Below the pieces are notes generated by a model, which saw only the letters and a program-made list of their open reading frames with translations, made no database searches and had not been told where the DNA came from. A stretch of DNA of 64,000 nucleotides. Source: Clostridia bacterium (GTDB lineage: Bacteria > Bacillota > Clostridia > UMGS1883). Every line of letters begins with the position of its first letter. Position 1 is the first letter of the stretch. Made by a program: the position numbers and the translations under genes. The DNA is taken from NCBI GenBank assembly GCA_017411435.1, contig JAFQQD010000050.1, positions 1 through 64,000 of the forward strand, given 5' to 3'. Shown piece after piece: positions 35,257-35,357 of this stretch.

Positions 35257-35264
35257 AAAAAAAC

Positions 35265-35357
35265 ACTCCTTGTCAATTTGTAGCCTTAACAACCAACACT
35301 GAAGACGCCTTTAGGGTTGGTTGTTAAGGCTACAAATAGTATGTCCTGACAAGGAGT
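35265..35357 (-). promoter_or_regulatory. nested hairpin in the enolase leader covering the ribosome site
   Basis: Outer arms ACTCCTTGTCA / TGACAAGGAGT (35265-35275, 35347-35357) are perfect, and one contains the eno AAGGAGT. Inside, two 21-bp arms (about 35278-35298 and 35317-35337), starting TTTGTAGCC, are perfectly complementary around an 18-nt loop. On the eno transcript this can form a long stem that hides the Shine-Dalgarno. No T-run follows, so it is not a simple terminator for the upstream gene. A small palindromic insertion is another reading. Confidence 0.6.

Follow-up and report, generated by a model that had tools for sequence, protein, structure and literature searches.

Directly ahead of the enolase gene (eno) of this Clostridia bacterium lie two perfect inverted repeats, one nested inside the other, and the question they raise is whether so exact a structure is a single device that hides the ribosome binding site (RBS) of a core glycolytic gene or a composite of different origins. 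We examined the locus in a window of 64,000 nucleotides, meaning the whole stretch of DNA analysed, with seven related genomes in total for testing. The features from which the argument starts are these:

33979..35256, minus strand: eno (enolase), with Pfam Enolase_N and Enolase_C
35254-35256: eno start codon, the complement of which reads ATG, eno being on the minus strand
35257..35263, minus strand: T-run (7 T) that separates the outer stem from the eno ATG
35265..35275, minus strand: 3' arm of the outer stem, TGACAAGGAGT, which includes the eno RBS, AAGGAGT
35347..35357, minus strand: 5' arm of the outer stem (anti-RBS), ACTCCTTGTCA on the minus strand
35364..36563, minus strand: polysaccharide deacetylase gene upstream of eno (PF01522, E 1.5e-36, profile run on 35364-36569)

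The deacetylase stop codon falls just ahead of the hairpin, and this gene also adjoins eno in relatives; eno itself is the single match to an enolase protein in the genome. The sigK gene (NCBIfam TIGR02846; window 28012-28671) adjoins eno in three relatives (G003, G004 and G006), and here aconitase-like and isocitrate-dehydrogenase-like genes (30871-33940) lie between the two.

As originally predicted, the outer stem is a perfect 11-bp duplex that takes in the eno AAGGAGT (arms 35265-35275 and 35347-35357), and about three further pairs can be added outward (AAT with GTT). The inner stem is also perfect, as had been claimed, at a length of 22 bp (35276-35297 with 35316-35337) instead of the 21 bp first given; it reaches 29 nt at 93% when extended, and among the perfect inverted repeats of the 64-kb window whose arms lie no more than 100 nt apart it is the longest. 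Nine bases (GGACATACT) stay unpaired between the outer and inner stems on the 5' side and coincide with a conserved promoter-like box. The remark that no T-run follows is right for the inner stem and wrong for the outer one, past whose 3' arm the minus strand reads G, TTTTTTT (35263 down to 35257) and ATG. The minus-strand leader RNA folds at -60.2 kcal/mol, compared with -24.5 +/- 3.3 for shuffled sequences (n = 200, none as good; z = -10.8). On the comparative evidence set out below, the nested repeats before eno are the product of two unrelated histories, an old genus-wide hairpin and a mobile palindrome in its loop.

The older of these is the outer stem, which stands between the deacetylase gene and eno in all five of the same-genus genomes whose leader can be read (G001, G002, G003, G005 and G006; the G004 contig starts within eno). 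In every one of them a short gap separates the deacetylase gene from a hairpin whose 3' arm includes the eno RBS; a T-run, present in four relatives and interrupted in G003 (TTTTTATT), and the start codon come next. The leader of each genome folds 5.7-7.8 standard deviations below its shuffles, the present leader being computed without the insert. Pairing is kept in 91% of cells of a five-leader alignment; sliding it by one, two or three columns lowers this to 48-69% in the two nearest directions and to 44-69% overall. G003 was omitted from this pairing alignment with its stem shifted, yet that stem is equally paired (CCTCCTC/GAGGAGG) and provides a separate instance of kept pairing. The covariance anticipated in aligned leaders of relatives is borne out for the outer stem: 5 of its 14 pairs carry two-sided changes among the five leaders, and the covariation score of 0.293 compares with 0.129 for shuffled alignments, a value that 0 of 500 shuffles reach and that lies above every slid version too, with the qualifications that shuffles overstate significance for five related sequences and that the present row, from which the insert was removed, gives a result that depends on the chosen junction. 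Outside the genus no such hairpin was seen: among 31 inspected eno leaders from other genomes, only two (L040 and L041) were positive, and these are the G006 and G001 records, that is, genus members. A hairpin general to clostridial eno was rejected on this count. Judging from the alignments, the outer stem is almost certainly ancestral and conserved in the genus.

The same stem has the shape of an intrinsic terminator, with a G+C-containing stem, one G and then TTTTTTT, and the relatives are alike. A short-loop terminator scan of the window does not list it, because the loop limit of that scan is 8 nt. An Rfam scan of the window returned zero matches above the gathering score, and a riboswitch or leader family from Rfam was rejected for the eno leader.

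In the read-through RNA of the present genome, the eno RBS has a predicted unpaired probability of 0.0. This full predicted pairing, together with the conservation in the genus and the two-sided pair changes, upholds for the outer stem the earlier claim of a cis-acting structure that sequesters the RBS. That claim had treated the nested structure as one unit; relatives without the inner stem fold alike, and the inner stem is thus not what sequesters the RBS. If RNA instead starts after the promoter-like box, the RBS is predicted to be unpaired with a probability of about 0.54 in the present genome and 0.68 in G006. In three other relatives it stays mostly paired in the predicted short RNA (0.09-0.30 unpaired), which is predicted to pair weakly with its own coding start. 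By these fold models, a free RBS after a start in the loop is not general across the genus.

The start assumed for these shorter RNAs is set by two putative promoter elements, the first of them in the ancestral loop:

35337..35346, minus strand: promoter-like -10 box, GGACATACTA, a candidate by its sequence
35362..35366, minus strand: -35-like TAATA, 15 nt ahead of the -10 box, likewise a candidate

The box in relatives reads GGTTATACTA, GGGTATACTA, GGACATACTA or GCAAATAATA (the last in G003), and the -35-like element reads GAATA, GAATA, GAATA, GTATA and GCATA at a spacing of 14-15 nt. The leader consensus is GNATA, 14-15 nt, GGnnATACTA, and the -35-like TAATA of the present genome is weak. 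Forespore sigma-F/G promoters have the -35 sequence GywTA and the -10 sequence GGnnAnAnTn, which the loop box and GNATA resemble in their letters. In B. subtilis, a spacing of 15 nt is usual for sigma-F promoters, and that of the sigG promoter is 14 nt (PMC5942855). A sigma-A-like TATACT also lies within the loop of three relatives, G002 alone has a sigma-A -35, and a promoter scan of the present eno leader gave no sigma-70-type promoter. A whole-genome search for the sigma-F-like box yielded 5 matches, fewer than the 29 in the reversed control, and was dropped as uninformative; the spoIIR upstream regions were dropped as a sigma-F yardstick because overlapping coding sequence confounds them, and no SASP, SpoIVB or SpoVT genes were found by motif in the sample of the present genome to serve as yardsticks. 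That the loop box is the eno promoter is a plausible but unproven step, and we infer its sigma factor assignment, the transcription start site, termination and translational silencing. Since eno is single-copy, it must be expressed in growing cells too. It is quite improbable, in our judgement, that eno of this genus lies under a forespore-type (sigma-F/G-like) promoter inside a terminator/anti-RBS hairpin, like its sigG, so that a glycolytic enzyme would be coupled to sporulation and a fused terminator-promoter-RBS leader would recur at a number of genes.

We hypothesize that the leader fuses three signals, namely a terminator-shaped hairpin of the deacetylase gene, the eno RBS forming the 3' arm of that hairpin, and a promoter-like box that the loop encloses. 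RNA derived from upstream would either be terminated at the T-run or, on read-through, have its eno RBS locked in the stem, whereas RNA begun at the loop box would have its RBS exposed. The latter would lack the 5' arm, and eno would therefore be translated mainly from its own promoter. A 52-bp element resembling a miniature inverted-repeat transposable element (MITE) would then have inserted at a TA in the loop, adding an extra 22-bp inner stem, leaving the outer arms facing each other and giving the eno mRNA a hairpin at its 5' end or close to it; RNA from the box would, in the present genome, start at the insert edge and carry the insert hairpin at its 5' end. The conserved outer stem, the T-run and the insertion are read from the sequences and the RBS pairing from predicted folds, and any effect of the insert on eno is presumptive. 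We are moderately confident in the outer stem as a conserved terminator-shaped RBS lock with its full mechanism, and we lean to a similar degree towards the whole account of a terminator-shaped hairpin, RBS lock and loop promoter with a later MITE-like insert.

A regulated attenuator is possible, if unlikely. There would then be no loop promoter, eno would be co-transcribed with the deacetylase gene, and a factor or signal would set termination or RBS closure against opening, with the loop as its recognition site. Such a device usually combines the terminator and RBS sequestration in one hairpin, as found here; moreover, the loop GGnnATACTA is constant while the stem changes, and the present leader is without a good sigma-70 promoter. 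However, no alternative (anti-terminator) fold was seen and no Rfam family matched, the loop box holds its spacing to GNATA in the manner of a promoter, and a recognition site in the loop should have been disturbed by the insertion of an element there.

We regard it as distinctly unlikely that the outer stem is merely a deacetylase terminator overlapping the eno RBS in a compact genome, so that the RBS is hidden to no regulatory end. An RBS need not sit inside a terminator, yet it does so in 6 of 6 leaders, and for the same design at sigG of B. subtilis a translational reading is on record (PMC5942855). What speaks for this simpler possibility is the terminator shape with its T-run in the present genome and most relatives, as well as the same overlap at other genes.

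Other genes were surveyed in a sample of 20 stretches of the present genome, about 459 kb, with starts called automatically. Of 373 genes in which an RBS could be recognised, 7 have that RBS in a strong stem (score at least 24), compared with 1 in one shuffled control, and promoter-like spacers complementary over at least 7 nt to their own RBS occur at 7 of 95 genes (1.4 expected; 0 of 500 permutations), with thresholds picked after looking in this survey. As a sequence pattern, the enrichment of RBS-hairpin leaders in this genome is suggestive only. Further genes of the present genome (G000) whose RBS sits within a hairpin's 3' arm, with a T-run and ATG next, lie at C24:115702 (serC), C13:21836, C58:3036 and C68:7890, and at serC a TTGACA-17-TATAAT promoter lies around the 5' arm. 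Within the window, a terminator-shaped hairpin at 57938-57969 (AAAACACCTCTCTGTA ... TATAGAGAGGTGTTTTCATTATG) overlaps the RBS ahead of a start at 57973, and a perfect 21-bp inverted repeat at 59394-59456 (AAAACAGGGTGTTTAAAAACC) has a short T-run after it and resembles an ordinary terminator.

A clear case is sigG, whose leaders in all seven genomes resemble that of eno in anatomy; as folded, an RBS hairpin and a T-run are present in 6 of 7 genus genomes, and the hairpin is weaker or rearranged in the rest. A loop box common to eno and sigG (GGTTATACTA) was considered and rejected, as in sigG those letters belong to the stem and vary between species; the promoter-like box of sigG is a different stretch (GNATA, 14-15 nt, GGGAAARATT). 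On this comparison of their leaders, the link between eno and sigG is anatomical and not a shared motif. In the sigG leader of G004 (L216), another palindromic stretch of about 40 nt (TTAGGCATCGGAGA...TCTCCAATGCCTTAA) occupies the RBS-hairpin loop, a second case of a palindrome inside such a loop.

Returning to the terminator-shaped RBS lock before eno, the palindrome in its loop is very probably a MITE-like insertion, a reading drawn from other copies in the genome and from TA-compatible empty sites in relatives. The element and its copies are as follows:

35281..35332: inserted palindromic mini-element of 52 bp with TA at each end, GCCTTAACAACC...GGTTGTTAAGGC; element ends TAGCCTTAACNACC
35276..35280 with 35333-35337: CAAAT/ATTTG palindromic flank just outside the element
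C21:30248-30523: element copy with the same ends, 276 bp
C68:30290-30351: element copy, a hairpin after an amidase gene
C14:2126-2149: element copy, single arm only

The CAAAT/ATTTG flank makes the inner stem longer than the inserted element. The inner repeat (TAGCCTTAAC[AG]ACC[AG]AC...) occurs at four places in the present genome, including the eno leader and the single arm; the palindrome is absent from the eno leaders of all five same-genus relatives, the repeat was not found in 20 other family genomes (up to 2 mismatches), and neither it nor the element ends had matches in viral contigs, plasmids or phages. The eno copy and the C21 copy each begin and end with TA. The C21 site reads CCTCAGTA, element, TAACTCAG against an empty CCTCAGTAAACTCAG in G006, with one base different, and the C68 site reads GTGAATATA, element, TATAGTC against an empty GTAAATATAGTA in the same genome, which fits TA or TATA. 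Both empty sites are consistent, as sequences, with insertion at TA, with small ambiguities. The eno flanks rejoined at one TA give GGACATACTATTTGTACAAATTGACAAGGAGTG, close to the GGGTATACTATAAGTATCATGTACAAGGAGTG of the more distant G002. The interior of the C21 element (G000 C21:30307-30427) is part of another dispersed repeat family, of which there are five further partial copies with 74-78% identity.

The original prediction had also entertained a miniature inverted-repeat element that captured the leader. The element itself is supported for the inner stem by other genomic copies, empty sites and TA junctions; the capture is not, as the hairpin pre-existed. Copies at unrelated sites, which were to mark a mobile repeat, were found for the inner palindrome only and not for the outer stem. 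An RNase III-type processing site between the deacetylase gene and eno is very improbable, for the long perfect duplex in the present read-through RNA that would suit such a site is found in this genome alone, due to the insert, and the hairpin of the relatives is short and terminator-like. A single mobile or REP-like repeat of 93 bp that carried the RBS in is scarcely tenable and was rejected: the inner part is indeed a repeat with other copies, but these share the inner part only, and the outer stem is kept at the same place in relatives without the insert.

A structure that strikes the eye as designed can thus be layered from two separate pasts, here those of a conserved regulatory hairpin and of a mobile palindrome lodged inside it. 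The loop, tolerated as a landing site, offers a natural experiment in which features of the hairpin count. Should the insulator reading hold, a mechanism known from a sporulation sigma factor and phage lysis genes would extend to central glycolysis, and in compact Clostridia a single hairpin may insulate neighbouring genes as the terminator of one and the RBS lock of the next.

MITEs of the IS630/Tc1/mariner type are short, non-coding elements with terminal inverted repeats, TA at both ends and dispersed copies. Our element is like them in its terminal inverted repeats, TA at the ends, dispersed copies and empty sites in relatives, and unlike them in having few copies of sizes from 52 to 276 bp; its TA duplication is not cleanly resolved at every site. 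The outer stem is like intrinsic (Rho-independent) terminators in the T-run that directly follows it, whereas its 3' arm doubles as the RBS of the next gene and its loop, in the present genome, is 71 nt long with a hairpin of its own.

Two features of read-through-silencing hairpins are found in the eno leader, the RBS in the 3' arm and a stem conserved by pairing. In B. subtilis sigG (spoIIIG), a hairpin of 20+ pairs was proposed to block translation of read-through RNA; its 3' arm holds the RBS, and RNA begun at the gene's own promoter is unable to form it (PMC5942855, citing Masuda 1988). As at sigG, upstream-derived RNA has the eno RBS within the 3' arm of a strong predicted stem; unlike sigG, eno stands behind a polysaccharide deacetylase gene, has a T-run directly after the stem and a putative promoter, and in one genome carries a palindromic insert in the hairpin loop. 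In phage T4, gene e (like soc, 49 and I-TevI) has long early transcripts in which a helix hides the RBS, while transcripts from the late promoter, which lies beside the RBS, are without the 5' strand and are translated (reviewed in PMC3014915). The T4 leaders belong to phage genes and are experimentally proven, whereas eno is a host enolase whose promoter is a candidate; the passages of PMC3014915 used here describe no terminator shape for them. By analogy, if the loop promoter is real, the eno leader would work like the leaders of sigG and T4 gene e.
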